DNA from: Streptomyces sp. CB02056
GTDB lineage: Bacteria; Actinomycetota; Actinomycetes; Streptomycetales; Streptomycetaceae
Length of the DNA: 64,000 bases
Direction: 5' to 3'
NCBI RefSeq assembly: GCF_001905545.1
Contig: NZ_LIPD01000002.1
Location: forward strand, 434,001 to 498,000
In this document: piece after piece, positions 26,483 through 40,945 of the stretch
How the letters are laid out: each line of letters opens with the position of its first letter
How positions within the stretch are numbered: the stretch's first letter is position 1
Made by a program: the position numbers and the translations under genes
The notes under the pieces: model-generated
Databases searched by the model: none
What the model was told of the DNA's origin: nothing
The model's input: only the letters and a program-made list of their open reading frames with translations

Positions 26483-26624
26483 GGCCGCTCTCCTCGGGCT
26501 CTGCTGGTGCGTACCGCCGCCTTCGTGCGGGGGTTCGATTCCATCCTTCCACCTGGCCGGGGGCCGGGGGAGGGGGCGGGCGGGGAGGGGCGACGGCGGG
26601 GCGAAGGGCGGCGGCCGGCGTCGG

Positions 26625-26659: not shown

Positions 26660-28519
26660 GTGCGAGTCGGGGACGTCCTGGACGGCCGGTACGAGCTGGT
26701 GGAGAAGCTCGGGCAGGGCGGGTTCGGGGTGGTGTGGCGGGCCGAGGACACCCGGATGGGGCGGCCGGTGGCGGTCAAGGTCATCGGGCACCACGGCGGT
26801 GACCGGGCGAAGGCCGCGCTGCGGTTCGTCCGGGAGGCCGGCGCGGCCGGCAACCTCTCGCACCCGCACATCGTCACGGTGCACGACCTCGGGCAGTGCG
26901 AGCTCGGCGGCGAGGAGGTCACCTACCTGGTGATGGAGCTGCTCACCGGCCGCACCCTCACCGAGGTGCTGGAGGCGGGGGTGCCCGAGCCCGGGCTCAG
27001 CCTGCGCTGGGGGCGGCAGATCAGCGGCGCGCTGGCGGCCGCGCACGACGCGGGCATGGTGCACCGGGACATCAAGCCGGACAACGTGATGATCACCGAC
27101 GCCGGGCACCTGAAGGTGCTGGACTTCGGCATCGCCCAGCTGGACACCGGCGCGGGCGGGCTGACCACCACCGGGACGATCGTCGGCAGCCCGGCGTACA
27201 TGGCGCCCGAGCGGTGGACCGGCGGCCGGGTGGACGGGCGGGCCGACCTGTACGCGCTGGGCTGCGTCCTGGTCGAACTCTTCACCGGGGCACGGCCGTT
27301 CGGCGGGGACTCGACGCCGGTGCTGATGTACCAGCACCTCAACGAGGTGCCCGCGCCGCTGGACCCGGCGCAGTTCGGGCTGCCGCCGCAGGTGGCCGGG
27401 CTGGTCGCGGAGCTGCTGGCGAAGGACCCGGCGGACCGGCCGGCCGACGCCCGTACGGTCGAGCGGCGGCTCGCCGAGCTGGCCGGGTGGGCGGGCGGCC
27501 GGGCGGGTGCGCCGGCGCCGGTGCCGACGGTGGTGGAGCGCCCGGCGCCGGTGGTGCCGCCTCCGCCGAGCGCCCCGCCGGTCGTCCCCGCGCCCGCCGT
27601 TTCCCCGCCCGCCGTGCCGCCCGCCGTTCCCGCGCCCGCTGTTCCCGCTCCCGCCGCGCCGCCCGCCGTCCCGTCGGTGCTGCCGCCGCTGACCACGCCG
27701 CCGGTGACGGCCGCGCCGCCCTCCGAGGCCGTACGGGCCGGGCTGCGCGAGCGCCGGTCGGCCGCCTACCGGGCGGCGACGGCCGGCGAGTCGGCGATGC
27801 TCCTGCAGACCGTCGCCCAGGAGTGCGTGACCGTGCTCGGCGCGAGCGACCGGGACACCCTGTGCACCTGGCGGGACTTCGCCTGGTACCTCAGCCGGAC
27901 CGGGGACCTGAACGGCGCGATCCGGCTGCTGACCGCCCTGGTGGGCGACATGCGCTCGGCGCTCGGCCCGCTCGACCCGGACACCCTCGGCGCCCGCTAC
28001 CACCTGGTCTGGTGCGTCGGCGAGAGCGGTGCGCCGATCACCACGATCCGGCTGATGCACGAGCTGCTGCCCGACCTGCACGCCGCCTGGGGCCCGTACG
28101 ACCCCCGGGTCCTGAAGGCCCGGCACGACCTCGCGCTGCACCAGGCCAACCGGGGCGACCCGCAGGGCGCGGTGATCCAGCTGCACGGGCTGCTGCCGGA
28201 CCTCGTCCGGGTGCTGGGCGAGCAGCACCCGAGCACCGTGCAGGCCTGGCAGGACCTGGCCGGGTACCAGCGGCAGCTGGCCGAGGCCGGCCGCAAGGGG
28301 CCGGGGCCGCGCCGCCGGACGCCGCGGATGAGCCCGATGGAGGCGCTGGTGCTGGTGCGGCGGCTGCGGGTGTGGGACTTCGCCACCGACGAGCAGGCCC
28401 GGGTCTGCATGGACGCGCTGGACCGGGGGATCGGCCTGAAGGGCGTCGCGGACGTGGTGTTCGACGCGCCGGACCACGTCTCGGACGAGGACCTGGTGGA
28501 GGAGATCTTCGGAGCCTGA
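26660..28519 (+). CDS. Ser/Thr protein kinase with TPR-like region and immunity-like C-terminus
   Basis: 619-residue soluble kinase. Kinase domain about 7-275: P-loop GQGGFGVVW, Lys40, HRDIKPDN with Asp137, DFG with Asp155, and APERW. A Pro/Ala/Val-rich linker runs about 285-360. TPR-like repeats of about 43 residues (about 375-535) share a pattern of LG, DPDTL and a helical HDLA-type segment. The last 60 residues resemble colicin-immunity/e9imm proteins (see findings). No membrane span is present, unlike PASTA kinases. GTG at 26660 has a strong RBS; the ATG at 26640 is in another frame. It is divergent from the FdhF/YdeP gene. Confidence 0.87.
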   Translation: MRVGDVLDGRYELVEKLGQGGFGVVWRAEDTRMGRPVAVKVIGHHGGDRAKAALRFVREAGAAGNLSHPHIVTVHDLGQCELGGEEVTYLVMELLTGRTLTEVLEAGVPEPGLSLRWGRQISGALAAAHDAGMVHRDIKPDNVMITDAGHLKVLDFGIAQLDTGAGGLTTTGTIVGSPAYMAPERWTGGRVDGRADLYALGCVLVELFTGARPFGGDSTPVLMYQHLNEVPAPLDPAQFGLPPQVAGLVAELLAKDPADRPADARTVERRLAELAGWAGGRAGAPAPVPTVVERPAPVVPPPPSAPPVVPAPAVSPPAVPPAVPAPAVPAPAAPPAVPSVLPPLTTPPVTAAPPSEAVRAGLRERRSAAYRAATAGESAMLLQTVAQECVTVLGASDRDTLCTWRDFAWYLSRTGDLNGAIRLLTALVGDMRSALGPLDPDTLGARYHLVWCVGESGAPITTIRLMHELLPDLHAAWGPYDPRVLKARHDLALHQANRGDPQGAVIQLHGLLPDLVRVLGEQHPSTVQAWQDLAGYQRQLAEAGRKGPGPRRRTPRMSPMEALVLVRRLRVWDFATDEQARVCMDALDRGIGLKGVADVVFDAPDHVSDEDLVEEIFGA

Positions 28520-28579: not shown

Positions 28580-30520
28580 TCACCGTGCGCACGCCGCCAG
28601 CGCCGGGGCGGCCGCCGGGAGCGCGGCCAGGGCCCGGAGCAGGGCGCGGGCGGCGGCGTCGTTCTGCCGGAAGCCGGGGGCGTCGGTGCGGGGGCGGGCG
28701 AAGGCGGCGGCCGCGCGCAGGCTGGTGTGCGGGCCGAGGGCGGTGCGGCGCGGGTGCGGGGCGCCGCCGAGGGCCGGGTCCAGCAGCCGGCTGTCGGCGG
28801 CGGCGATGGTGACCAGGCCGGAGCGGTGGGTGTAGTCCGGGTCGGTGACCACCTCCTCGACGATCCGTCCGGTGCGGTGCAGTTCGCCGAGCACCGGGTC
28901 CAGGGTGCGGGCCAGCGCGTGCTTGGGCAGGTACGCCTCGACCAGGGCCGTCGCGGTGACGTGGTGGCCGGGCACGGTGGCGCCGGAGGCCCGCCAGGTG
29001 CCGCTCGCCTCGTCCCGTTCGATCCGTACGTCCGCGCCGAGGAAGCGCACCACCCCGGCCTCGGAGAGGGCGAGCAGCTGGCGCAGCCGGAACCCGGGCG
29101 GGCCGGAGGCGAGGAAGCTGAAGTAGCCGAAGAACCACTCGTCCACCTCCTCGGCGAGGGAGCGGGCGGTGAGCCGGCCGCTGGCGACGACCCGGGGGAG
29201 CCGGCCGAACAGCGAGAGCAGGGCGAGGAAGGCGCCGAGGTCGGCGCTGTGCGCGGGGTCGGCGCGGCGGTCGGCGTCGGCGGTGACGTACCCGCGCAGG
29301 TGTGCCTGGAGCTCCTCGTCGGTGCCGAGTTCGAGCCCGGCCAGCGGGTGGTCGAGCCGTTCGAAGTCGATCCGGTCGGCCGGGTCGGGGACGGCCTCGG
29401 CGACCAGGGCGGCGAGTTCGGGGGAGTACCAGGCGTGCCGGTCGTAGCGGGCGAGGAACTCCGGCCAGGGCAGGGCGGTGCGCCCGGGGTGGGCGTGGAA
29501 CAGCTCGTGGTAGTGCCCGAAGGCGATCTCCTTGGCCATCAACGGCCAGAAGTCGCGCCGCAGTTCGAGCTGTCCGCCGGTGGCGAGCACGGCGTCCACG
29601 GCGGCCTCGTCGAAGTACCGGGGGAGCGGGGCGGGCGGCCCCTGGAGCCGGTAGCCGGTCTTGGAGTGGTACGGGACGCCGCGCCGGGAGCCGAGGTGGA
29701 GCACCGGCTCGCGGCCGGAGGGGAGGTAGCGCAGCGCGGGCCCGTCCCCGGTGGGCTCGAAGCGGCCGCCGCGGCCCTCGGTGAGCAGGGCGACCAGGTC
29801 CACCGAGGCGAGGCCGAGGCCGCGCAGCACCACGTGTTCGCCGGGGGCGAGGGCGGCCAGGTCGTCGGCCGCGTCGGCGGAGTAGGCGGGCGGGAGGTGG
29901 AAGCGGCCGTGCCGGGCGGCGAACCGGGCGTCGGCGGCGTAGCGCGGGTGCGGGACGGAGTCGAGGTGGCCGAGGGTGAGCACGACGTGGTCGGCGGCGA
30001 GGGTCCGGTCGCCGAGGCGGACGGTCTGCGGGCCGTCGGCCGGGCCCTCGATCCGGTGGACGGTGTCGCGGTGGACGGTGACCGTGACGTGCGCCGGCAG
30101 TTCGGCGACGGTGCGGCGGAACACCCAGTCCAGGTAGGCGCTCTGGGCCCGGCGGGTGGGGAAGTCGGTGGGGGCGAGGGTGCGCAGCTCGGCCCGGACG
30201 GCCGGGTCGGCGACCTCCCGGTAGGGCGCGAACTCCTCCTGCCGGGGCGCCCATTCGGCGAGCGAGGGGCCGGGGCGGACCGGTCCGTCGAGGGTGGAGC
30301 GCTCGTCGGTGAACATGGTGACGTCCTCGGCCATCGAGTTCATCCGCAGCAGCGGGGACTGGTCGTGGCGCCAGATCCGGCCCGCGCCCGGCGGGTACGG
30401 GTCGACCAGGTGGATCGCCAACGGCCGCTCGGCGGGCAGGAGTTCGGCGGCGTTGGCGGCGATCCGCTCCAGCAGCCCGGTGCCGCGCGGGCCGGCGCCG
30501 ACGATGACGAGCTCCGTCAT
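28580..30520 (-). CDS. FAD/NAD(P)-binding protein (flavin oxygenase-like)
   Basis: 646-residue cytosolic flavoprotein of the FAD-NAD(P)-binding family (PF13454-like). The FAD-binding motif VGAGPRGTG is at residues 6-14. A second dinucleotide region includes LTLGHLDSVP and GLGLASVDLVALLTEG. The family resembles N-hydroxylating monooxygenases, but no member close to this one is characterised to my knowledge. It overlaps the upstream permease gene by 4 nt (ATGA), so the two are translationally coupled. This ties the enzyme to uptake of an amino-acid-like solute, possibly as a second oxygenase acting on the imported compound. Confidence 0.78.
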   Translation of the reverse strand: MTELVIVGAGPRGTGLLERIAANAAELLPAERPLAIHLVDPYPPGAGRIWRHDQSPLLRMNSMAEDVTMFTDERSTLDGPVRPGPSLAEWAPRQEEFAPYREVADPAVRAELRTLAPTDFPTRRAQSAYLDWVFRRTVAELPAHVTVTVHRDTVHRIEGPADGPQTVRLGDRTLAADHVVLTLGHLDSVPHPRYAADARFAARHGRFHLPPAYSADAADDLAALAPGEHVVLRGLGLASVDLVALLTEGRGGRFEPTGDGPALRYLPSGREPVLHLGSRRGVPYHSKTGYRLQGPPAPLPRYFDEAAVDAVLATGGQLELRRDFWPLMAKEIAFGHYHELFHAHPGRTALPWPEFLARYDRHAWYSPELAALVAEAVPDPADRIDFERLDHPLAGLELGTDEELQAHLRGYVTADADRRADPAHSADLGAFLALLSLFGRLPRVVASGRLTARSLAEEVDEWFFGYFSFLASGPPGFRLRQLLALSEAGVVRFLGADVRIERDEASGTWRASGATVPGHHVTATALVEAYLPKHALARTLDPVLGELHRTGRIVEEVVTDPDYTHRSGLVTIAAADSRLLDPALGGAPHPRRTALGPHTSLRAAAAFARPRTDAPGFRQNDAAARALLRALAALPAAAPALAACAR

Positions 30521-31470
30521 GCCCGCACCACCTTGACGAGGGCCGCGCGGGCCTGCTGCAGCGGGGTGGGCGGCAGGCCGTCGCGGGTGGCGCCCCGGGC
30601 GAAGCGGCGCTCCACGTAGTACTGCCCGATGGACAGCAGGGTGGTGACCACCAGGTACCAGATGGTGGCGACCATCAGCATCGGGATGACCTGGTACGAC
30701 TGGAGGTAGACCAGCTGCACCGAGTAGAGCAGGTCGGAGACGGCCAGCACGCTGACGATGCTGGTGCCCTTGAGCGCGCCGATCAGCATGTTCCCGGCGG
30801 TCGGCACGATCGCCCGCATCGCCTGCGGCACCACGATCCGGCGCAGCACCCGCCACCGGCCGAGCCCGAGCGCGGCCGCCGCCTCCAGCTGGCCGCGGTC
30901 GACGGAGAGGATGCCGCCGCGGATCACCTCGGCGGCGTACGCGGTCTCCAGCAGGGTGAGGCCGATGACGGCGGTGAGGGTGGGGCCCATCAGGTTGACG
31001 GTCTTGACCGTGACGAACTCGGGGCCGAACGGGATGCCCAGGCCGAGGGTCGGGTAGAGCGCGCCGATGTTGAAGAAGAACAGCAGCTGCACCAGTGGCG
31101 GGGTGGAGCGGAACACCCAGATGTAGCCCCAACTGAGCGTGCGCAGGACGGGGTTGTCGGACAGTCGCATGGTGGCGAGGACGGTGCCGAGCACGAAGCC
31201 GAGGGCGAGGGTGGCGGCGGTCAGCCAGAGGGTCAGGGCGAGGCCGTCGAGCACGGAGCGGGCGGTGAACCAGTCGGCGACCACGCTCCACTGGAAGGCC
31301 TTGTTGCGGACCACCGAGTTGACCGCCATCGCGGCCAGCAGCAGGGCGACGGCGGCCGCGGCCCACTGGCCGGGCTTGCGGCGGGCGACGATCCGGGCCT
31401 CGGGGGCGGGCGGCGTTCCGGGGCGGTCGAGGAGGGCGGGGGCGGGCAGGACGTCCTGCGGGGTGGCCAT
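30517..31470 (-). CDS. Polar amino-acid ABC transporter permease (His/Glu/Gln/Cys family)
   Basis: 317-residue inner-membrane permease. Five or six spans run between about 40 and 290, and the cytosolic EAA loop reads EAAAALGLGRWRVLRRIVVPQ near 210. The N-terminal TM shows TLWLTAATLALGFVLGTVLA and the following MRLSDNPVLRTLSWGYIWVFRSTPP, the HisM/GlnP signature. RBS AGGAG lies 8 nt upstream. No ATPase or binding protein is in this operon, so it probably uses the ATPase at 35770. It is clearly homologous to the permease at 34760 and lies divergent from that operon. Confidence 0.9.
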   Translation of the reverse strand: MATPQDVLPAPALLDRPGTPPAPEARIVARRKPGQWAAAAVALLLAAMAVNSVVRNKAFQWSVVADWFTARSVLDGLALTLWLTAATLALGFVLGTVLATMRLSDNPVLRTLSWGYIWVFRSTPPLVQLLFFFNIGALYPTLGLGIPFGPEFVTVKTVNLMGPTLTAVIGLTLLETAYAAEVIRGGILSVDRGQLEAAAALGLGRWRVLRRIVVPQAMRAIVPTAGNMLIGALKGTSIVSVLAVSDLLYSVQLVYLQSYQVIPMLMVATIWYLVVTTLLSIGQYYVERRFARGATRDGLPPTPLQQARAALVKVVRA

Positions 31471-31584
31471 GGCGGCGGCTCCTGGGCGGAGTGCGGGCGG
31501 GGAGAGGTACGGCGGTGGTCACGTACGGGGGCGGCGGCCCGTGTCCCTCAACACGGCCGGCGCGTGGCACTGCACTCCGCGTCG

Positions 31585-31615
31585 ATCGTACGCACGCGCG
31601 ATCGACGGCTGTCAA
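31585..31615 (-). promoter_or_regulatory. Promoter of the permease/FAD-protein operon
   Basis: Minus-strand TTGACA (31610-31615, perfect -35) and TACGAT (31585-31590) with a 19-bp spacer. The leader to the ATG at 31470 is about 108 nt. Confidence 0.5.
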
Positions 31616-31699
31616 GGGTGGTCGGGGGTGCCGGACGGCTTCGTCGAAGCGCGTCGAAAAACCGACAGGAGATCGCAACAGTGCGGCAATGATGGATGG

Positions 31700-31728
31700 T
31701 TGACGTACCGATCGGCCGACTGTTCAAC
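31700..31728 (+). promoter_or_regulatory. Promoter of leader peptide and monooxygenase operon
   Basis: TTGACG (31700-31705) and TTCAAC (31723-31728), 17 bp apart. Transcription would start about 7 nt later, at or next to the leader-peptide ATG at 31737, so the leader would be leaderless. Confidence 0.4.
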
Positions 31729-31736
31729 TTGGGGCC

Positions 31737-31814
31737 ATGTACGCCGAGCAGCCCCTGGTCACCCGCGACCACATCGACTTCGGTCGGGTGTGGTCCGCGG
31801 CGTGTCGCGGCTGA
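31737..31814 (+). CDS. Putative cysteine-responsive leader peptide
   Basis: 25-codon frame ATG...TGA whose product contains VTRDHIDFGRVWSAAC followed by Arg-Gly and stop. Leader peptides ahead of actinobacterial sulfur-assimilation and sulfonate genes share a basic-His-hydrophobic-Asp-Leu/Phe, Arg-Val, Ser-x-x-Cys pattern ending in one or more Cys close to the stop; this peptide fits. It lies 296 bp before a SsuD-like monooxygenase gene and has no separate RBS, consistent with leaderless translation. Ribosome pausing at the Cys codon (31803-31805) when charged tRNA-Cys is scarce would affect transcription or translation downstream. It was found by eye, and expression is unproven. Confidence 0.68.
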   Translation: MYAEQPLVTRDHIDFGRVWSAACRG

Positions 31815-32109
31815 CCCGGCAGCGGGCCGCCCGTCCGGCCTGATCCCCCGGCGGGGAGAGCCCTCCCTCGGACCGCCCCGTCGCGGCCGGATCCGTCGTC
31901 GACGACCGGCGACGCGTCAGGCCCCCGCTGCCGCCGATGACCCCGCACTGCGCTCCGGCCCTCCCGCGCTCCGGCCCTCCCGTCGTCCGGTACCTCCGCT
32001 CCCGCACCCCTCCCACCGTCACCCGCTCGACGGCCGCCCCGCCGCGGCCGCCTCCGGTGCCGCCCACCCGCGGTCCACCGGACCTCCACCCACCCCGAAA
32101 GGTTCCGCC
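31815..32109. promoter_or_regulatory. Putative attenuator leader before the monooxygenase gene
   Basis: 295 nt with no further gene. GGCAGCGGG (31818-31826), just beyond the leader stop codon, is perfectly complementary to CCCGCTGCC (31924-31932), and several shorter GC hairpins lie between. This could be the switch controlled by the leader ribosome, but in such GC-rich DNA pairing alone is weak evidence. Confidence 0.35.
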
Positions 32110-33264
32110 ATGCCCGTCGAATTCCTCGGCATCGCCGCCACCGGCGACGGTTCGGAGACCACCGCCCGCACCACCGCAGCCTTCGACCGCGACTACACCC
32201 TGCGGCTGGCCCGGGCGCACGAGGACCACGGCTGGGACCGGGTGCTCTTCGCGTACGGGGCCGGCGCCCCCGAGCCGGCGGCCGCGGCGGCCTTCCTCGC
32301 CTCGCACCTGGACCGCCTCCAGATCCTGCTGGCGCACCGGCCCAACGTCTCCTACCCGACCTTCGCGGCCAAGACCTTCGCGACGCTCGACCGGATCAGC
32401 GACGGCCGGCTGACCGTCCACTTCATCACCGGCGGCAACGACCACGAGCAGCAGCGCGAGGGCGACTTCCTGACCAAGGACCAGCGCTACGAGCGCACCC
32501 GCGAGTACATCGGCATCGTCAAGAAGGCCTGGACCAGCCGGGAGCCCTTCGACCACGAGGGACCGCACTACCGCTTCAACGACTTCGTCTCCGACGTCTT
32601 CCCCGTGCAGCAGCCGCGCCCCGGGGTCTCCTTCGGCGGCTCCTCGGACGCGGCCTACGCGGCCGGCGGCGCCGAGGCGGACGTCTACTGCCTGTGGGGC
32701 GAGCCGCTGGCCCGCACCGCCGAGCAGATCGAGCGGGTGCGGGAGGCGGCCCGGGCCGCCGGGCGCACCGACGTGCCGCGGATCCAGGTGGCGTTCCGGC
32801 CGATCATCGCGCCGACCGAGGCGCTGGCCTGGGAGAAGGCGCACCGGACGGTGGCCGCGATCCGGGCCCGCCGGGGCGCCGACCGGCCGGAGGGCGTCCC
32901 CGAGGCCGTGACGCCCGAGAACACCGGCTCCCGGCGGCTGATCGAGATCGCCGAGGCCGGCGAGCGCTACGACCGGGCGCTGTGGACCCCGACCGCCGCG
33001 GCGACCGGCGGGGCGGGCAACTCCAACGCGCTGGTCGGCACCCCGGAGACGGTCGCCCAGGCGCTGCTCGACTACTACGACCTCGGTGTGGACATCCTCT
33101 CCGCGCGCGGCTACCACCTGCTGGACGACGCGATCGACTTCGGCCGGTACGTCATCCCGATCGTCCGCGAGGAGGTCGCCAAGCGGGACGCCGCCAAGGC
33201 CGGGGCCGCCCGGGCCGAGCGGGCCGAGCGCGACCGCCACCAGCTGATCGCGGCGCAGGCGTGA
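32110..33264 (+). CDS. LLM-class FMN-dependent monooxygenase, SsuD-like
   Basis: 384-residue flavin-dependent monooxygenase of the bacterial-luciferase TIM-barrel superfamily. It follows alkanesulfonate monooxygenase SsuD along its length: early GDG, LRFLVALRP-like segment here as LQILLAHRPNVSYPT, ATLDRISDGR, HFITGGND, the RYERTREYIGIV helix, QQPRPGVSFGGSSDAA, WGEPLARTAEQI and the C-terminal LVGTPETVAQ. It would use FMNH2 and O2 to cleave a C-S bond or oxidise a sulfur substrate; reductant must come from a separate flavin reductase. The weak RBS AAAGG is 8 nt upstream. First structural gene of the operon; it overlaps the GNAT gene by GTGA. Confidence 0.9.
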   Translation: MPVEFLGIAATGDGSETTARTTAAFDRDYTLRLARAHEDHGWDRVLFAYGAGAPEPAAAAAFLASHLDRLQILLAHRPNVSYPTFAAKTFATLDRISDGRLTVHFITGGNDHEQQREGDFLTKDQRYERTREYIGIVKKAWTSREPFDHEGPHYRFNDFVSDVFPVQQPRPGVSFGGSSDAAYAAGGAEADVYCLWGEPLARTAEQIERVREAARAAGRTDVPRIQVAFRPIIAPTEALAWEKAHRTVAAIRARRGADRPEGVPEAVTPENTGSRRLIEIAEAGERYDRALWTPTAAATGGAGNSNALVGTPETVAQALLDYYDLGVDILSARGYHLLDDAIDFGRYVIPIVREEVAKRDAAKAGAARAERAERDRHQLIAAQA

Positions 33265-33779
33265 GCGCGGCCGGCGGGTGGGAGTTCCGCAAGGCGTCCG
33301 TCGACGACCCCCTGGTCGAACCGCTGCTGCGCGAGCTCACCCACGAGTACGTCACCCGGTACGGCCCCGAGGCGCACCAGGAGATGACCCGCTACCCGGG
33401 CGAGGCCTTCGCCGAGCCGCACGGCGTGCTGCTGCTCCTGCTGGAGGACGGCGAACCGGTGGCCGGCGGCGCGTACAAGCGCTACGACGAGCGCACCGCC
33501 GAGGTGAAGCGGATGTGGACGCACTCCGCGCACCGCCGCCGGGGCCTGGCCCGCCGGGTGCTGGCCGAGCTGGAGCGGACGGCCGTCGCGGCCGGCTACA
33601 GCCGGTTCTACCTCACCACCGGGCCGCGCCAGCCCGAGGCCAGGAACCTCTACCTGGCGGCCGGCTACACCCCGCTGTTCGACGTCTCGGCCGATCCGCT
33701 GACCATCGGCCCGCTCCCCTTCGAGAAGCGGCTGCCGGTCCTCGGACCGCAGTCGTCCGTTCTGGCCCACACTCCCTGA
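33261..33779 (+). CDS. GNAT-family N-acetyltransferase
   Basis: 172-residue acetyl-CoA-dependent acetyltransferase. The acetyl-CoA loop is HRRRGLARRVL near residue 95, preceded by the strand EVKRMWTHSA; the C-terminal motif B includes EARNLYLAAGYTPL. Its start overlaps the monooxygenase stop, so the pair is translationally coupled. In B. subtilis a GNAT enzyme (SnaA/YtmI) N-acetylates S-substituted cysteines before a flavin monooxygenase cleaves them; the same partnership is inferred here from gene order only. Alternatively it could detoxify an amine or amino acid analogue. Confidence 0.83.
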   Translation: MSAAGGWEFRKASVDDPLVEPLLRELTHEYVTRYGPEAHQEMTRYPGEAFAEPHGVLLLLLEDGEPVAGGAYKRYDERTAEVKRMWTHSAHRRRGLARRVLAELERTAVAAGYSRFYLTTGPRQPEARNLYLAAGYTPLFDVSADPLTIGPLPFEKRLPVLGPQSSVLAHTP

Positions 33780-33789
33780 AAGGCCCCCC

Positions 33790-34731
33790 GTGAGAACCAG
33801 CACCGTCCGCCGCCTGCTCGCGACCGCCGCCCTGCTGCCGGTCCTGGCCCTGGCCGCCTGCGGCTCGGACCCGAAGATCGCGGGCGCGGCGGCGGGCGGT
33901 CCGTCCGCCGCCGCCACCGAGGACCTCGTCTCCGGCCTCAGGACCTCGCAGGCCGCCGCCGCGCTGCTGCCCGAGGACGTCCGCGCCGCCGGCACGATCA
34001 GGTTCGGCTCGTCCTTCGGCACGCCGCCCAGCGCCTTCTACACCGACCAGGCCGACCGGAGGCCCGCCGGGATCGACGTGGACTTCACCGACGCGGTGGC
34101 CAGGCTGCTCGGCCTGACCGTGCAGCGCGAGCAGGCCGCCTTCGAGACCATCCTGCCCGCCCTGGACAGCGGGAAGTACGACGTCGGCACCGGCAACTTC
34201 GGGGTCACCGCGGCCCGGCTGAAGACCATCGACTTCGTCACCTACATCGACGACGGCCAGGGCTTCGCGGTGAAGAAGGACAACACCGCGATCCAGCCGG
34301 TCACCGACCTGGTCCAGCTGTGCGGACTGACCATCGGCACCGGCGCCGGCACCACCTTCGAGACCACCCTCAACAGCCGGAAGAGCGTCTGCACCGACGC
34401 CGGGAAGAAGCCGTACGAGGTCAAGGCGTTCAGCGAGAGCGGCGCCCTGCTGACCAGCCTCCAGCAGGGCCGGGTGGACATCGAGATGTCCACCATCAAC
34501 GGCCTGCGCCACCAGGTCGCGCAGGAGGCCTCGGGGACCCGCTTCCTCAACGAGTTCCACCGCCTCGACGTCGGCTTCGCCCTGAAGAAGGGCTCGAAGC
34601 TCGCCCCGGCCCTCCAGGCGGCGGTCAACCAGCTGATCAAGGACGGGACGTACGAGCGGATCCTGCGCAAGTGGGGGGTCGCCGAGTCGGCGATCAAGGA
34701 GTCGCAGATCAGCCCGCCCGAGCACGCCTGA
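33790..34731 (+). CDS. ABC transporter solute-binding lipoprotein (family 3) A
   Basis: 313-residue exported lipoprotein, with lipobox LALAAC and lipidated Cys24. It has the bacterial family 3 amino-acid-binding fold, recognised by GTIRFGSSFGTPPSAFY, DFTDAVARLLGL, ILPALDSGKYDVGTGNFGVT and the terminal YERILRKWGV. It would capture a polar amino-acid-like solute, outside the membrane, for the permease encoded next. The GTG start is 10 nt after the GNAT stop, in one operon. It is homologous to, but clearly different from, the binding protein at 36610, which suggests two related ligands. Confidence 0.9.
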   Translation: MRTSTVRRLLATAALLPVLALAACGSDPKIAGAAAGGPSAAATEDLVSGLRTSQAAAALLPEDVRAAGTIRFGSSFGTPPSAFYTDQADRRPAGIDVDFTDAVARLLGLTVQREQAAFETILPALDSGKYDVGTGNFGVTAARLKTIDFVTYIDDGQGFAVKKDNTAIQPVTDLVQLCGLTIGTGAGTTFETTLNSRKSVCTDAGKKPYEVKAFSESGALLTSLQQGRVDIEMSTINGLRHQVAQEASGTRFLNEFHRLDVGFALKKGSKLAPALQAAVNQLIKDGTYERILRKWGVAESAIKESQISPPEHA

Positions 34732-34759
34732 GCGCCGGCCCGAGCGAAGGAGACCCCCG

Positions 34760-35773
34760 ATGACCACCGCCACCACCGCCACCACCGGGACCAGCGCGGC
34801 CCCGCCCAGCCGGCCGGCCCCGGCCGCCGCCCTCGACCTCGACCGGCTGGCCGGCCTGCGCACCGTCCCCGCCCGGCACCCCTGGCGCTGGGCCGCCGGG
34901 ATCGCCGCGCTGGTCGTGCTCGCCCAGTTCGCCCACGGCCTGGCCACCAACCCCGGCTGGGACTGGGCCACCTTCCGGCTCTACTTCACCGCCGACACCA
35001 TCCTCCGGGCGATCGGACGGACCCTCGAACTCACCGCCTACGGCACGGTGCTGGGCTTCCTGCTGGGCACCGTGGTGGCCGCGATGCGGCTGTCCCGCAG
35101 CGCGATCCTGCGCTCCATCGCCTGGGCCTACGTGTGGGTGTTCCGCTCGATCCCGCTGATCGTCCAGCTGGTGTTCTGGTTCAACCTCTCCTACCTGTAC
35201 AAGCGGTTCGGGATCGGCATCCCGTTCGGCCCGACCTTCGGCGAGGTCGAGACGGTCGGGGTGCTCAGCGCGCTCGGCGCGGCGGTGCTCGGCCTCGGGC
35301 TGCACCAGGCCGCGTTCGCCGCCGAGATCATCCGCGGCGGCATCATCGCGGTGGACGCCGGCCAGCGCGAGGCCGCCGCCGCGCTCGGCATCCCGCGCTG
35401 GCGGCAGGGCCGGCGGATCGTGCTGCCGCAGGCCATGCGCGGCATCCTGCCGGCCGCCGCCAACGAGGTGATCTCGCTGCTCAAGGGCACCTCGGTGGTC
35501 TACGTGATGGCCATCGGCGAGCTCTTCTACCAGGCCCAGGTGGTCTACGGCCGCACCGGCCGGGTGGTGCCGCTGCTGATGGTCGCCACCGTCTGGTACG
35601 TGCTGCTGACCACCGTGCTCTCGGTCGGCCAGTACTACGTCGAGCGCCACTTCGCCCGCGGCGCCCAGCGCACCCCGCCGCCCACCCCGTGGCAGCGCGT
35701 CCGGGCCCTCGCCCGGAGCCTGCCGGACCGCACCCGGCCCGCCGCCGCCCGTACCCCCGGAGGACAGTCGTGA
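34760..35773 (+). CDS. Polar amino-acid ABC transporter permease
   Basis: 337-residue membrane permease of the HisM/GlnP family. Spans begin near residue 50, and [20 protein letters not shown] and [20 protein letters not shown] precede the EAA loop [20 protein letters not shown]. It parallels the permease at 30517 along its length. ATG at 34760 has GAAGGAGA upstream. Its stop overlaps the GTG of the ATPase gene by 4 nt (GTGA), giving tight coupling of permease and ATPase. Confidence 0.92.
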
Positions 35774-36564
35774 CCACCCTGACGAAGCCCGAGCCGAGCC
35801 CGGCCGCCCCGATGGTGCAGGTCCGCGGCCTGCACAAGAGCTTCGGCCGGCTGGAGGTGCTGCGCGGGGTCGACCTGGACGTCCCGGCCGGCTCGGTGAC
35901 CGTGGTGCTCGGCCCGTCCGGCTCCGGCAAGTCCACCCTGCTGCGCGCGATCAACCACCTGGAGAAGCTGGACCGCGGCCACGTCGCCATCGACGGCGAG
36001 CTGATCGGCTACCGCCGCTCCGGCGACCGGCTGTACGAGCTCAAGGAGCGCGAGGTGCTGCGCCAGCGCACCGGCATCGGCTTCGTGTTCCAGAACTTCA
36101 ACCTGTTCCCGCACCTCACCGTGCTGGAGAACCTGGTCGAGGCGCCGGTCTCCGCGCTGCGCCGCCCCAGGGCCGAGGCCAGGGCGACGGCGCTGGCGCT
36201 GCTGGAGCGGGTCGGGCTGGCCGACAAGGCCGCCGCCTACCCCCGGCAGCTGTCCGGCGGGCAGCAGCAGCGGGTGGCGATCGCCCGGGCGCTGGCGCTG
36301 GAGCCGAAGGTGCTGCTGTTCGACGAGCCGACCTCGGCGCTCGACCCGGAGCTGGTCGGCGAGGTGCTGGACGTCATCAAGGACCTGGCCCGCAGCGGCA
36401 CCACGATGATCGTGGTCACCCACGAGATCGGCTTCGCCCGCGAGGTCGCCGACACCGTGGTCTTCATGGACGGCGGCGTGGTGGTCGAGCAGGGCCCGCC
36501 CGCCGAGGTCCTGGACCGGCCGCGGCACGAGCGCACCCGGGCCTTCCTGGCCAAGGTCCTCTGA
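35770..36564 (+). CDS. Polar amino-acid ABC transporter ATP-binding protein
   Basis: 264-residue ATPase of the GlnQ/HisP/TcyN type that energises import. Walker [10 protein letters not shown] (about 47-55), Q-loop [16 protein letters not shown] signature LSGGQQQR, Walker [14 protein letters not shown] and H-loop VVTHEIGFA are all intact. It is the only ABC ATPase in the window, while two permeases and two binding proteins of the matching family are present, so it probably serves both or forms a heterodimeric-permease transporter as TcyLMN does. Confidence 0.94.
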
Positions 36565-36609
36565 CCTTCCCCTTTCCCCAACCCCCCTTCACCGAGCAGG
36601 AGTTCCGCC

Positions 36610-37590
36610 ATGTCCCTACCCCGTCGCGCCCTCGTGACCGCCGCCGCGCTCACCGCAGCCCTCGTCCTGGCCGGCTGCGGCAGCGGCGCCACGGGCGCGG
36701 CGGGGGAGCTCGCCCCGGCCAAGGGCAGCACCGCGCCGGACGGCACGGTGGTGAACCTGTCGCCGAACCAGGAACGGGTCACCACGCCCAAGGTCGACGC
36801 GATCGCCGCGCTGGTCCCGGAGGAGATCAGACGGAAGGGGACGCTGAGCGTCGTCGACTCCATCGGCTCCACCCCGCCGCTGGACTTCTACGCCAACGAC
36901 GACAAGACGATCATCGGCGTCGAACCGGACCTCGCCCTCCTGATCGGCAACGTGCTCGGCCTCAAGGTCGAGTTCAACCCGGTCTCCTGGGAGAACATCT
37001 TCGTCGGCCTGGACAGCGGCAAGTACGACGTCGGCCTGTCCAACATCACCGTCACCGAGGCGCGCAAGGAGAAGTACGACTTCGCCACCTACCGGCTGGA
37101 CGTCCTGGGCTTCGAGGCGAAGAAGGGCGGCGGCCTCAAGGTCACCGGCCCCAAGGACCTCGCGGGCAAGACGGTCGGCGTCGCCACCGGCACCAACCAG
37201 GAGAAGCTGCTGGTCTCCTGGAGCGAGGAGAACGTCAGGAACGGCCTCAAGCCGATCGACATCAAGTACTTCCAGGGCACCGAGTACTACCTGGCGCTCT
37301 CCTCCGGCCGGATCGAGGTCTACACCGGCCCCAACCCCAGCCTGGCCTTCCACGCCGTGCAGACCGGCGAGACCGAGGTCGTCGGCACCTACTCGGGCGG
37401 CGGCGCGGACGTCCTCGGCAAGATCGCGGCGACCACCCGGAAGGACAACGGCCTGGTCAAGGCGTTGAACGGGGCGATCGACGAGGTGATCAGGAACGGC
37501 ACGTACGGGCAGGTGCTCAAGCGCTGGGGCCTGGACGACGAGGCCGTGAAGAGCTCCGAGATCAACCCGCCCGGGCTGCCCAAGCCGTAG
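36610..37590 (+). CDS. ABC transporter solute-binding lipoprotein (family 3) B
   Basis: 326-residue lipoprotein, lipobox LAGC with Cys23, otherwise the family 3 binding fold: KGTLSVVDSIGSTPPLDFY, EPDLALLIGNVLGLKVEF, FVGLDSGKYDVGLSNITVTE and GTYGQVLKRWGLDD. Last gene of the operon, 45 nt after the ATPase. It shares the pattern GLDSGKYDVG with protein A but differs in much of the ligand-facing sequence. A family 3 pair with one ATPase is the layout of B. subtilis tcyJ/tcyK. The ligand is not determinable from sequence. Confidence 0.9.
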   Translation: MSLPRRALVTAAALTAALVLAGCGSGATGAAGELAPAKGSTAPDGTVVNLSPNQERVTTPKVDAIAALVPEEIRRKGTLSVVDSIGSTPPLDFYANDDKTIIGVEPDLALLIGNVLGLKVEFNPVSWENIFVGLDSGKYDVGLSNITVTEARKEKYDFATYRLDVLGFEAKKGGGLKVTGPKDLAGKTVGVATGTNQEKLLVSWSEENVRNGLKPIDIKYFQGTEYYLALSSGRIEVYTGPNPSLAFHAVQTGETEVVGTYSGGGADVLGKIAATTRKDNGLVKALNGAIDEVIRNGTYGQVLKRWGLDDEAVKSSEINPPGLPKP

Positions 37591-37690: not shown

Positions 37691-37750
37691 GACCCCTCCG
37701 ACCCCTCCGGCGGCGAACGCCGAGCGGGCGCGGTCGGGTTGGGGGAGGGA

Positions 37751-38962
37751 ATGGAGAAGGGCGAGGTGCTCGGCGGCCGCTTCCGGCTGGAGCAGGAGCT
37801 GGGCCGGGGCGGCTTCGGCGTGGTCTGGCGGGCGACCGACACGACCATCGACCGGCCGGTCGCGGTCAAGGTGCTGCTCGCCGAGCACGCCACCGACCGG
37901 GAGGCGGTCAGCCGGTTCGTCCGCGAGGCCCGGACGGCCGGCGGCCTCAACAACCCGCACATCGTCACCGTGTACGACTACGGGTGGACGGAGTCCGGCT
38001 CCGGGAAGATCCCGTACCTGGTGATGGAGCTGGTCCGCGGCCGGGCGCTGTCCGAGGTGCTCAAGGACGGCCGGCCGGACCACAAGCAGGGGCTGCGCTG
38101 GATGCGGCACGTGTGCAAGGCGCTGGACGCCGCGCACCGCTCGGGGATCGTCCACCGGGACATCAAGCCCGAGAACGTGATGATCGTGGAGGACGGGGAG
38201 CGGGCCAAGGTCCTGGACTTCGGCATCGCCCGACTGGTCACCCAGACCGTCCGGCTCACCTCCACCGGCAACGTGGTCGGCACCGTCCCGTACCTGGCGC
38301 CCGAGTGCTGGTCCGGCGGCCCGGTGGACGGCCGGGCCGACCTCTACGCGCTCGGCATCATGCTGTACGAGGTCTGCACCGGCACCCGCCCGTTCCGCGC
38401 CGCCTCGGCCGCCGAGTACATGTACAAGCACCTGGAGGAGGTCCCGCCCCGGGTGCGCGGCAAGGACCCGGCCCTGGCCGGGCTGGTCGCCGAGCTGCTC
38501 GCCAAGCGGCCCGGACAGCGGCCGGCCGGCGCCGCCGAGGTGCTGGAGCGGCTGCGCGCCATCCGGCCCGGGATGCTGCGCCCGGACGACCCCAGCCCGG
38601 AGCAGCTGCGCCGGCGGGCCGACCGGGCCTGGCGGCACGGGGAGGCCGGCGAGGCCGCGGAGGCGGTGGAGATCCTCACCGCGCTCGTCCCCGACTTCGC
38701 CCGGATCTGCGGTCCGGAGGACCCGCGCACCCTGCGCACCTGCCACGACCTGGCCCTCTGGCTGGCCCGGGACGGCAGCCCGGGCGCGGCCGCCGCCCTG
38801 CTGGACGAGCTGGCCCAGGTGCCCGGTGCCACCCCGGAGGCCCGGGCGGACGCCCGGCGCGACCTCGCGCACTGGCAGCGGGAGGCCGCCCGGCTCGGCC
38901 CGGGCCGGCCGCGGGCCGTCGCCCTGGCGGCGCTGCTCGGCGGCGGCGCGCAGGACGGCTGA
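37751..38962 (+). CDS. Ser/Thr protein kinase with short TPR-like C-terminus
   Basis: 403-residue soluble kinase, collinear with the kinase at 26660: Lys40 and HRD Asp137 have identical residue numbers, and DFG Asp156 differs by one. The P-loop is GRGGFGVVW and the activation segment carries TSTGNVVGTVPYLAPECW. About 110 residues after the kinase domain form one or two TPR-like helical pairs (GPEDPRTLRTCHDLALWLA). No membrane span, PASTA or sensor domain is present. ATG 37751 has GGGGGAGG close upstream; a TTG four codons earlier is possible. It lies between the transporter operon and the FAH gene, in its own unit. The substrate is unknown. Confidence 0.86.
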   Translation: MEKGEVLGGRFRLEQELGRGGFGVVWRATDTTIDRPVAVKVLLAEHATDREAVSRFVREARTAGGLNNPHIVTVYDYGWTESGSGKIPYLVMELVRGRALSEVLKDGRPDHKQGLRWMRHVCKALDAAHRSGIVHRDIKPENVMIVEDGERAKVLDFGIARLVTQTVRLTSTGNVVGTVPYLAPECWSGGPVDGRADLYALGIMLYEVCTGTRPFRAASAAEYMYKHLEEVPPRVRGKDPALAGLVAELLAKRPGQRPAGAAEVLERLRAIRPGMLRPDDPSPEQLRRRADRAWRHGEAGEAAEAVEILTALVPDFARICGPEDPRTLRTCHDLALWLARDGSPGAAAALLDELAQVPGATPEARADARRDLAHWQREAARLGPGRPRAVALAALLGGGAQDG

Positions 38963-39166
38963 GCCGCCGCCGCGCGGCCGGCCCGGCGGGTGTCAACCGT
39001 GCGGGCCGCCGAGCCGGGGCGGCGGCCGGAGCGCCAACCGGGAGGATTTCGCCCATCGGGACGGTCTGGCCCGCCGCCCCGGCGCGTTGGTATACCTCGT
39101 TGCCGGACTCGGGAGCGGCCTCCGGGCCGCCCCGGTGAGCTGCGACGAAAGGCTGGTGACGGATCG
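38963..39166. other. Intergenic region before the FAH-family gene
   Basis: Contains the perfect palindrome GGTATACC (39089-39096) about 70 nt before the start, which may be a -10 element or a GntR-type operator. No gene is seen. Confidence 0.35.
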
Positions 39167-40018
39167 ATGAAGCTCCTGCGCGTCGGACCCGCGGGCGCCG
39201 AGCGCCCGGTCGTCCTGGGTGAGGACGGCACCGCGTACGACCTCTCGGGGCGGACCCGCGACCTCGACGGGGCCTTCCTGGCCGGGCTGGACCCGGCCGC
39301 ACTGGCCCGGGACGCGGCCGCCGGCGTCCTGCCGGTGCTGGACCTCGACGGCCTGCGGGTGGGCGCACCGGTGCCCCGGCCGGGCAAGGTGGTCGGCATC
39401 GGGCTCAACTACCGCGACCACGCGGCCGAGGCCGGGGCCGCGATCCCGGCCGAGCCGGTCATCTTCCTCAAGCCGGGCTCCACCGTGGTCGGCCCGTACG
39501 ACGAGGTGCTGGTGCCGCGCGGCGGCGAGAAGACCGACTACGAGGCCGAGCTGGCCGTCGTGATCGGCCGCACCGCCCGCTACCTGGACTCGCACGCCGA
39601 GGCGGCCGGGGTGATCGCCGGGTACACGATCGCCAACGACGTCACCGAGCGGGCCTTCCAGTTCGAGCGCGGCGGCCAGTGGGACAAGGGCAAGTCGGCG
39701 GAGACCTTCACCCCGCTCGGGCCCTGGCTGGTCACCCCCGACGAGGTGGCCGACCCGCAGGCGCTGACCCTGCGGCTGTGGGTCAACGGCGAGCAGCGGC
39801 AGCACGGCAGTACCGCGGAGATGGTCTTCCCGGTGCTCGAACTGGTCCGCTACGCGAGCCGGTTCATGGTGCTGGAGCCCGGCGACGTGGTCATCACCGG
39901 CACCCCGGCGGGGGTCACCCTGGGCCGCCCCGGCACGCCGTACCTCGCCCCGGGCGACGTGGTCGAGATCGAGGTCGACGGGCTCGGCCGCCAGCGCCAG
40001 GTGCTCGGCAAGGCGTAA
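39167..40018 (+). CDS. Fumarylacetoacetate hydrolase (FAH)-family protein
   Basis: 283-residue metal-dependent enzyme of the FAH/HpaG superfamily, which hydrolyses or decarboxylates 1,3-dicarbonyl acids in aromatic and related catabolism. An N-terminal cap (about 1-65) precedes the core with VVGIGLNYRDHAAE, FLKPGSTVVGP, the acidic metal ligands in DYEAELAVVIG and the IANDVTERAFQ region, and VITGTPAGVTLG near the end. No catabolic partner genes adjoin it, so ureidoglycolate lyase-like, 2-hydroxyhepta-2,4-diene-dioate isomerase-like and acylpyruvase activities are all possible. ATG at 39167 lacks a strong RBS; the frame upstream is non-homologous. Confidence 0.87.
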   Translation: MKLLRVGPAGAERPVVLGEDGTAYDLSGRTRDLDGAFLAGLDPAALARDAAAGVLPVLDLDGLRVGAPVPRPGKVVGIGLNYRDHAAEAGAAIPAEPVIFLKPGSTVVGPYDEVLVPRGGEKTDYEAELAVVIGRTARYLDSHAEAAGVIAGYTIANDVTERAFQFERGGQWDKGKSAETFTPLGPWLVTPDEVADPQALTLRLWVNGEQRQHGSTAEMVFPVLELVRYASRFMVLEPGDVVITGTPAGVTLGRPGTPYLAPGDVVEIEVDGLGRQRQVLGKA

Positions 40019-40091: not shown

Positions 40092-40826
40092 CTAGGAGCC
40101 GCCGCCCAGCACCGCCCGCAGCCGCTCCGCCCGCTCCGGCCGCGGCCCCTCCAGCGCCAGCACCCCCGCCAGCACCTCGGCCGTCTGCGGGTCGTGCAGC
40201 GCCGTCGCCGCCGCCATCGCCGTGAACTGGTCCACCAGCCAGTCGCGCAGCTCCGCCACCGGCAGCGCGCGCCCCTCGTCCAGCCAGCTCAGCGACGCGC
40301 CCTCGACCACCGCGATCCAGGAGCGCACCAGCAGCGTCAGCCGCGGCCCGGCCTCCCGCACGCCCAGGTGGCGCAGCGTCCGGCGCAGCGCCTCCCGCCG
40401 GACGTCGTCCACGATCGCCGAGGTGCGGGCCGTCTCCACCACCGAACCGCCGCGCAGCAGCGCCGAGTAGCCCGCGTCGTGCTCGGCCACGAAGGCGAAG
40501 TAGCCGTCCAGCACCGCCGACAGCTGCTCGGACGGCGTCCCGCTCAGCCGCAGCGCGAAGCGGCTGCTCAGCTCGTCCGCCGCGGTGCGCAGCGCGGCCT
40601 CGTACAACTGCTGCTTGCCGCCCGCGAAGTAGCGGTACACCAGCGGGCGGGAGGCCCCGGCGGCCTCGGCGACGTCGTCCAGGCCCACCTCCTCGGGCGG
40701 CCGGGAGGCGAACAGCTCCAGGGCGACCGCGATCAGCTGCTCGCGCCGCTGCTGGACCGGCAGCCGCCGGTAGCCGGTGCGGCGCGGGCGCGGCTCGGGT
40801 GCGGCCGGGGCGGGGCTGGCTTCCAT
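40092..40826 (-). CDS. TetR-family transcriptional regulator
   Basis: 244-residue one-component repressor. The N-terminal helix-turn-helix (about 20-68) contains the typical LDDVAEAAGASRPLVYRYF. The rest is an all-helical ligand domain with no recognisable class signature. ATG at 40826 is preferred because a TACGCT -10 element lies 8 nt upstream, implying a leaderless transcript; the frame is open to 40931 without similarity. It is divergent from the DUF885 gene with 119 bp between starts, so that gene is the likely target. Confidence 0.87.
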   Translation of the reverse strand: MEASPAPAAPEPRPRRTGYRRLPVQQRREQLIAVALELFASRPPEEVGLDDVAEAAGASRPLVYRYFAGGKQQLYEAALRTAADELSSRFALRLSGTPSEQLSAVLDGYFAFVAEHDAGYSALLRGGSVVETARTSAIVDDVRREALRRTLRHLGVREAGPRLTLLVRSWIAVVEGASLSWLDEGRALPVAELRDWLVDQFTAMAAATALHDPQTAEVLAGVLALEGPRPERAERLRAVLGGGS

Positions 40827-40834
40827 GGCGGCCA

Positions 40835-40840
40835 AGCGTA
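40835..40840 (-). promoter_or_regulatory. -10 element of leaderless TetR promoter
   Basis: Minus-strand TACGCT ends 8 nt before the ATG at 40826, without a Shine-Dalgarno sequence. Confidence 0.45.
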
Positions 40841-40945
40841 ATGGGCGCCGGACGGATCGGATCCGGTCGCGCCGAACGGATTTTCGCAGGCGAACCCGGC
40901 TCGCAAAGGGGTTGCAAAGCTGCCGCGCCACGAAATGATGTCCGA

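Follow-up and report, generated by a model that had tools for sequence, protein, structure and literature searches.

A cysteine-ending leader and an N-hydroxylase-type flavoenzyme in a candidate organosulfur salvage cluster of Streptomyces sp. CB02056

Introduction

Which nutrient is served by a gene cluster that joins an amino-acid importer to two flavin-dependent enzymes and an acetyltransferase? The question is raised by a stretch of 64,000 nucleotides from the genome of Streptomyces sp. CB02056 (9.54 Mb, 34 contigs), that is, positions 434,001 to 498,000 of contig NZ_LIPD01000002.1; this whole stretch is the window, and coordinates are counted from its first letter. Positions 28580–37590 contain eight genes that encode a luciferase-like monooxygenase (LLM), a GNAT acetyltransferase, two binding lipoproteins (SBP1 and SBP2), two permeases (PERM1 and PERM2), one ATP-binding cassette (ABC) ATPase, and a large FAD/NAD(P)-binding protein (the FAD protein). 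A first-pass annotation, made from the letters of the DNA, placed these genes in two divergent operons and compared them with the ytmI operon of Bacillus subtilis, proposing that a cysteine-derived or sulfonated amino acid is imported, N-acetylated, and relieved of its sulfur by flavin oxygenation.

All eight genes are confirmed at their coordinates by Pfam and NCBIfam profiles, and the overlapping stop and start codons at the LLM–GNAT, PERM1–ATPase, and PERM2–FAD junctions fit with two divergent operons. The first-pass annotation overlooked a short leader open reading frame (ORF) at 31737–31814 (+ strand). Considered together, the leader, the conservation of the genes, and the predicted binding sites of their products suggest a variant of organosulfur salvage that is tied strongly to sulfur at the level of regulation. 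Two of its features are unexpected, namely an apparently retargeted N-hydroxylase and binding proteins that lack the Asp expected to hold an amino group. A description of this cluster was not found in the literature searched, which largely excluded subscription papers.

Results

A conserved leader ORF connects the cluster to sulfur

The leader ORF is located between the two operons, upstream of the LLM gene, and encodes 25 residues (MYAEQPLVTRDHIDFGRVWSAACRG) with the core HIDFGRVWS and a Cys near the C-terminus; it belongs to a family of leaders with the core HID[LF]xRV. Conservation was assessed in the best 80 of 196 loci with an FAD gene; in 72 of these the sequence extends for 7.9 kb or more on the LLM side (full-flank loci), and the eight with short flanks were left out of the gene counts. 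An HIDF-type leader is found no more than 2.2 kb from the FAD gene in 70 of the 72 full-flank loci (the misses are L057 and L079) and in six of the eight short-flank loci. Loci from which the LLM and the greater part of the transporter have been lost still have the leader, as do the Pseudonocardiaceae loci L065 and L068; five close relatives (L003, L007, and L024–L026) retain the leader, the transporter, and the FAD gene without a window-type LLM between the leader and the next gene. The bases of the leader are conserved at 0.93, 0.94, and 0.86 for codon positions 1, 2, and 3, compared with 0.56 for the furthest-upstream bases. Of 76 leaders, 35 have a single Cys among the last six residues, 40 have two, and one has none.

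We then surveyed 118 genomes of the class with the degenerate pattern HID[LF]xRV, using the reversed pattern as the control; the pattern gave 63 matches in 33 genomes and the reversed pattern gave one. Thirty of the matching loci were fetched, and 23 of these contain short leaders; the other seven (L097–L099, L102, L103, L112, and L116) were rejected as chance matches in, or as, long frames. Downstream of the 23 short leaders are sulfite/nitrite reductase genes in eight cases (two by Pfam, six by blastp), an LLM in three, and a 3'-phosphoadenosine 5'-phosphosulfate (PAPS) reductase, a Cys/Met pyridoxal-phosphate enzyme, and an FMN reductase in one each, so that 14 of the 23 precede a gene of one of these five types; an SBP_bac_5 protein follows in two, and seven have no assignable gene. 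In a control sample searched within about 1.5 kb, the leader was found at three of six loci with a window-type FAD gene, at none of nine loci whose homologue has the aspartate N-hydroxylase motif, and at none of 13 other homologue loci.

The genome of Streptomyces sp. CB02056 itself encodes a second HIDFGRVWS leader (L084, contig C5 near 118243), upstream of two LLM genes, the second of which matches YtnJ (276 bits), a protein that we take to be CmoJ. A third and looser copy, MTVLVRRRHIDFGRIHSTGCPVIV, precedes a carbonic-anhydrase-type gene (L088, contig C30 near 380652). Because members of the leader family precede sulfur genes and an HIDF-type member accompanies the FAD gene in 70 of the 72 full-flank loci, the assignment to sulfur is strong, and the cluster is very probably under sulfur or cysteine control. 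The sulfur link of the first-pass annotation is thus upheld by a cysteine-ending leader from a family that precedes sulfur-assimilation genes. The HIDFGRVWS leader may also serve as a sequence marker for finding uncharacterized sulfur genes in actinobacteria.

The region around the leader suggests how control might be exerted. A promoter-like TTGACG ... TTCAACT element (31700–31729, +) precedes the ORF, and TTGAC is located at a near-constant distance from the leader in all 76 loci with an HIDF-type leader; in the window the TTGACG box begins 37 nt before the ATG, a spacing that suggests a leaderless transcript. A sigma-70 consensus scan did not report a promoter at the leader, no intrinsic terminator was detected when one was sought in the leader region, and the predicted RNA fold is no better than those of shuffled sequences (z = −1.0; 18 of 100 shuffles at least as good). 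No NCBIfam model matches the leader and Rfam has nothing there. Between the leader and the LLM gene is an untranslated stretch that is rich in C and poor in G (31815–32109, +; C 0.53, G 0.28), a candidate Rho-loading region; the C/G ratio exceeds 1.5 in the last 180 nt after the leader in 47 of 50 loci, compared with 7% of random 180-mers from the same loci. A C-rich stretch and the absence of an intrinsic terminator suit Rho, a role for which is proposed for the mycobacterial cys leaders (PMC1262725).

Gene content of the cluster in related genomes

The eight genes are conserved as a group, with all eight together in 33 of the 72 full-flank loci (identity thresholds of 45–60%). Individually, PERM1 is present in 61, the ATPase in 60, PERM2 in 59, SBP1 in 56, SBP2 and GNAT in 47 each, and the window-type LLM in 45; retention on this scale argues that the grouping is not due to chance. 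The arrangement is not fixed, with SBP2 and GNAT each absent from 25 loci. The nearest proteins are from Kitasatospora (the best 120 of 3868 and the best 120 of 3702 matches), and their names are uninformative. In a wider search of the Streptomycetaceae, a near full-length LLM with at least 75% identity occurs, among the matches listed there, in 45 of 121 genomes. Some homologue of the FAD protein is encoded by 23 of 148 sampled genomes of the class, and the window type, as judged by alignment, by six (seven proteins, including that of the window).

Two relatives found in this class search show how the genes can be rearranged. In L158, from a different family, the GNAT and FAD genes adjoin and are opposite genes for a permease, the ATPase, SBP2, and a pair of LLMs; the order in L157 is similar, with one LLM matched. 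The GNAT gene is beside the FAD gene in the same orientation in both. From these gene orders, the recurring set is the FAD protein and a polar amino-acid importer, usually accompanied by GNAT and an LLM.

An N-hydroxylase-type enzyme that adjoins a GNAT (as in L157 and L158) is also what a metallophore pathway might display: IucD and IucB make a hydroxamate by N-hydroxylation and acetylation, and the ABC transporter could handle such a product with no salvage of sulfur. We regard this as highly improbable; the leader family marks sulfur genes, no synthetase is found among the eight genes, and the importer is of the polar amino-acid type.

The FAD protein is a divergent relative of L-aspartate N-hydroxylases

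The FAD protein (28580–30520, −; PF13454, 146 bits) is predicted to be an FAD/NADPH-dependent monooxygenase of the amino-acid N-hydroxylase type. Its sole match in the PDB is 8cp2, the L-aspartate N-hydroxylase of Streptomyces sp. V2 (333 bits; 256 of 585 residues identical). According to PMC10404684, the entry chamber for the substrate comprises Arg13, Arg276, Asn413, Arg416, and Arg577; bound sulfates touch Arg266, Arg409, Arg412, Asn413, and Arg416, and the side-chain carboxylate of the substrate is placed where sulfate was bound.

We aligned homologues of at least 450 residues (107 rows, 87 of the window type and nine with the aspartate motif). The nine aspartate-motif proteins keep all six residues of the side-chain cluster (Arg266, Arg276, Arg409, Arg412, Asn413, and Arg416); in the window protein all six are replaced or absent. 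In all 87 window-type rows, Lys is found at Arg266, nothing at Arg409, and Phe or Tyr at Arg412; Asn413 is replaced by Gly in 82, and Arg416 is never Arg. The flavin/NADPH site of the window protein is retained, including the catalytic residues Trp51 and Asn62; these two flavin-site residues and the carboxylate-contacting Arg13 and Arg577 are kept in the window protein and in nearly all rows of its type (Arg13 in 82 of 87, the other three in 86). When 35 rows chosen from the 107 were placed in a tree, the window-type and aspartate-motif groups separated with 100/100 support; by sequence, the FAD protein forms a clade of its own next to the L-aspartate N-hydroxylases. With the anion pocket lost and the oxygenating core kept, its substrate probably has a side chain that differs from that of aspartate and is uncharged. 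A predicted structure, based on 17 close homologues, was not used (mean pLDDT 49.4, pTM 0.35).

Which atom is oxygenated? The first-pass annotation noted that the FAD protein has no counterpart in the Bacillus operon; the protein is indeed an addition relative to ytmI, and its place can now be given as beside the amino-acid N-hydroxylases. The homology to 8cp2 and the retention of Arg13, Trp51, Asn62, and Arg577 would suit an enzyme that still N-hydroxylates. Its substrate would be a sulfur amino acid, supplied by the importer, whose side chain is uncharged, and its product an oxime or nitro acid from which sulfur is lost by elimination or by the LLM; this, too, would be sulfur salvage. We consider it unlikely, since N-acetylation of the substrate, as suggested by the GNAT gene that adjoins the FAD gene in L157 and L158, would block N-hydroxylation, and the binding proteins lack the Asp for a free amino group (vide infra). 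From the gene context, oxygenation of sulfur rather than nitrogen is the assignment that we tentatively prefer, although with less than even confidence.

The importer may not require a free amino group

The importer genes are PERM2 (30517–31470, −), in the same predicted operon as the FAD gene, and SBP1 (33790–34731, +), PERM1 (34760–35773, +), the ATPase (35770–36564, +; the GTG at 35770 was assigned as its start because it overlaps the stop codon of PERM1), and SBP2 (36610–37590, +). Both permeases are of the polar amino-acid transport (PAAT) type and resemble cystine permeases by NCBIfam, and the best NCBIfam match of the ATPase is the cystine ATPase TcyN (311 bits, below the cut-off of 406). 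An amino-acid importer with two binding proteins, as first annotated, is thus supported, as TcyN-like and of the polar type.

SBP1 and SBP2 are lipoproteins of the SBP_bac_3 family, in which, from relatives such as AncQR, we take an Arg to be the ligand for the carboxylate and an Asp the ligand for the α-ammonium group. The Arg is retained in 61 of 61 SBP1 and 48 of 48 SBP2 sequences. The Asp is found in none of them, being replaced within the motif MSTING in SBP1 and GPNP (or GPHP) in SBP2; it is also absent from the binding proteins of the cluster relatives L157, L158, L160, and L161. In contrast, the Asp is present in all seven other SBP_bac_3 proteins of the same genome and in the cystine-binding TcyJ of Escherichia coli. 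Its absence from both binding proteins makes a plain amino acid doubtful as the ligand; we judge the chances about evenly balanced that the ligand is a carboxylate with a masked amino group or with none. As a separate observation, the best NCBIfam match of both proteins is the Mycobacterium smegmatis kinase StpK7 (139 and 108 bits, cut-off 900), through the extracellular binding-protein-like part of the kinase.

These residues bear directly on the annotation's proposal that free S-substituted cysteine or cystine is imported and degraded as in Bacillus, with an SsuD-like LLM replacing CmoJ. The TcyN-like ATPase, the cystine-permease-like PERMs, the GNAT, and the CmoJ-like LLM pair in cluster relatives all agree with that proposal, but the ammonium Asp is present in E. 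coli TcyJ and absent here, and the LLM of the window is below the SsuD cut-off and does not match YtnJ. We find it distinctly unlikely.

The LLM is related to SsuD and MsuD

The LLM (32110–33264, +; PF00296) is predicted to be an FMNH2-dependent monooxygenase; the GTG start of the GNAT gene (33261–33779, +) overlaps its stop codon. Its best PDB matches are MsuD (167 bits) and SsuD (149 bits), SfnG also is matched, and YtnJ is not matched in the PDB search at an E-value of 0.001. The NCBIfam models for SsuD (TIGR03565; 205 bits, cut-off 518), SfnG (145 bits, cut-off 383), and TIGR03860 (78 bits, cut-off 280) all give scores below their cut-offs. In 59 of the 72 full-flank loci, the gene for some LLM is no more than 8 kb from the FAD gene; it is of the window type in 45 and YtnJ-like in 15, and some loci have both. 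We consider it fairly likely that the LLM cleaves the C–S bond.

The matches to MsuD, SsuD, and SfnG, together with an FMN reductase gene nearby in seven of the 72 loci, could instead point to desulfonation: the importer would supply a sulfonated acid or a sulfone acid that has no free amino group, the FAD protein would prepare it, and the LLM would act on it. This we regard as quite improbable, given that the importer is of the amino-acid type and not SsuABC, that the cut-offs of the SsuD, SfnG, and related models are not reached, and that the GNAT and the CmoJ-like partners indicate cysteine adducts.

The likeness to the ytmI operon therefore holds in part: the GNAT, the importer, and a flavin monooxygenase are shared, whereas the LLM is SsuD/MsuD-like, without a YtnJ match, and by Pfam neither CmoI nor RibR is among the eight genes. 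Some cluster relatives fit the analogy better, in that YtnJ is among the best structurally solved matches of a monooxygenase that they encode.

Genes flanking the cluster

Two mutually similar genes of the Ser/Thr kinase type flank the cluster (about 26700–28518, +, and 37739–38962, +; the latter matches Pkinase), and both are retained in several Kitasatospora loci. A molybdopterin oxidoreductase (24203–26548, −), a fumarylacetoacetate-hydrolase-type gene (39164–40018, +), and a TetR regulator (40095–40865, −) are further neighbors with no sign of a link to the cluster. Elsewhere in the window is an L31-Actinobacteria ribosomal protein leader (RF03158; 58531–58575, +).

Discussion

We tentatively read the cluster as a salvage system, induced by cysteine starvation, for S-substituted cysteines with a masked amino group, plausibly mercapturates from the mycothiol pathway; we would place the likelihood of this reading somewhat below even. 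A shortage of charged tRNA-Cys would make the ribosome stall at the near-terminal Cys codon of the leader and keep Rho off the C-rich stretch, so that the operon would be read through. The importer would then bring in an N-acetyl-S-substituted cysteine, e.g., a mercapturate exported after conjugation to mycothiol, and the GNAT would acetylate any substrate taken up with its amino group free. The FAD protein would oxygenate the thioether sulfur, the role that CmoO has in Bacillus, and the FMNH2-dependent LLM would cut the C–S bond; an FMN reductase and a deacetylase would be supplied from elsewhere in the genome.

Such substrates could plausibly come from mycothiol detoxification. In actinomycetes, the amidase Mca cleaves mycothiol S-conjugates and mercapturic acids are released to the medium, as described in PMC4267739 and PMC5518657. 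The genome of Streptomyces sp. CB02056 encodes Mca (494 bits, cut-off 277) and, outside the cluster, two M20 amidohydrolases that exceed their cut-off as well as FMN reductases. The carboxylate, the S-substituent, and the masked amino group of a mercapturate match the apparent demand of the binding proteins.

Several observations weigh against this reading. With respect to the enzymes, the characterized relatives of the FAD protein named in PMC10404684 hydroxylate nitrogen and not sulfur; 27 of the 72 full-flank loci are without a window-type LLM, and 13 have no LLM of any kind within 8 kb of the FAD gene. By Pfam, no deacetylase is among the eight genes. The GNAT would be difficult to explain if mercapturates are imported, for only substrates that are not yet acetylated would call for it. 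The missing Asp is not proof of a masked amino group, and the comparison on which it is based comprises proteins of the same genome and E. coli TcyJ. With respect to the leader, it ends with one or two Cys and not a run; the control for its C-rich downstream stretch consisted of random windows and not other untranslated regions; and two of the seven window-type loci of the class search (L157 and L158) have no leader by the pattern even with wider flanks, while L156 has only a YIDFGRVWS variant. That all parts are correct together, that is, a dedicated mercapturate importer that ignores the amino group, an N-hydroxylase retargeted to sulfur, and a leader that measures cysteine, we consider unlikely.

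If the reading is true, the cluster would provide a new route for C–S cleavage and close the loop of mycothiol sulfur; with mercapturates as the substrates, soil actinomycetes would recycle the waste of mycothiol-dependent detoxification. Beyond that, the cluster ties an N-hydroxylase-type flavoenzyme to sulfur acquisition and suggests a testable role for the 'FAD/NAD(P)-binding proteins', of which thousands are as yet unnamed.

Comparison with known systems

In B. subtilis, N-acetylation of S-alkylcysteine is followed by S-oxidation through CmoO and cleavage through CmoJ (PMC10863075), and the breakdown of S-(2-succino)cysteine proceeds by acetylation, cleavage, and deacetylation (PMC12757645). 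The ytmI operon (snaA-tcyJKLMN-cmoO-cmoJ) shares with the window a GNAT, two binding proteins, two permeases, one ATPase, and one or more flavin monooxygenases. The window differs in that its LLM is SsuD-like and not of the CmoJ type, in the addition of the N-hydroxylase-type FAD enzyme and the cysteine-ending leader ORF, in the lack of a deacetylase, and in binding proteins without the ammonium Asp.

The L-aspartate N-hydroxylases FzmM, CreE, and 8cp2 (PMC10404684) share with the FAD protein homology over the whole length and Arg13, Trp51, Asn62, and Arg577; the FAD protein is without the side-chain cluster, belongs to a separate clade, and is encoded with an importer and an LLM. The nearest solved relatives of the LLM are SsuD/MsuD and the dimethylsulfone monooxygenase SfnG; the LLM is below the SsuD and SfnG cut-offs and is associated with a different type of importer.

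Leaderless, cysteine-responsive small ORFs with polycysteine tracts are described in mycobacteria (Canestrari 2020, as cited in PMC13236596 and PMC9094748). These small ORFs and the cys leader peptides (PMC1262725) resemble the leader of the window, a short ORF with Cys near the end that precedes sulfur genes, has a promoter spacing indicative of a leaderless start, and is without an intrinsic terminator; the leader of the window differs in having one or two Cys and no run of them, the HIDFGRVWS core, and a putative operon for organosulfur uptake downstream.

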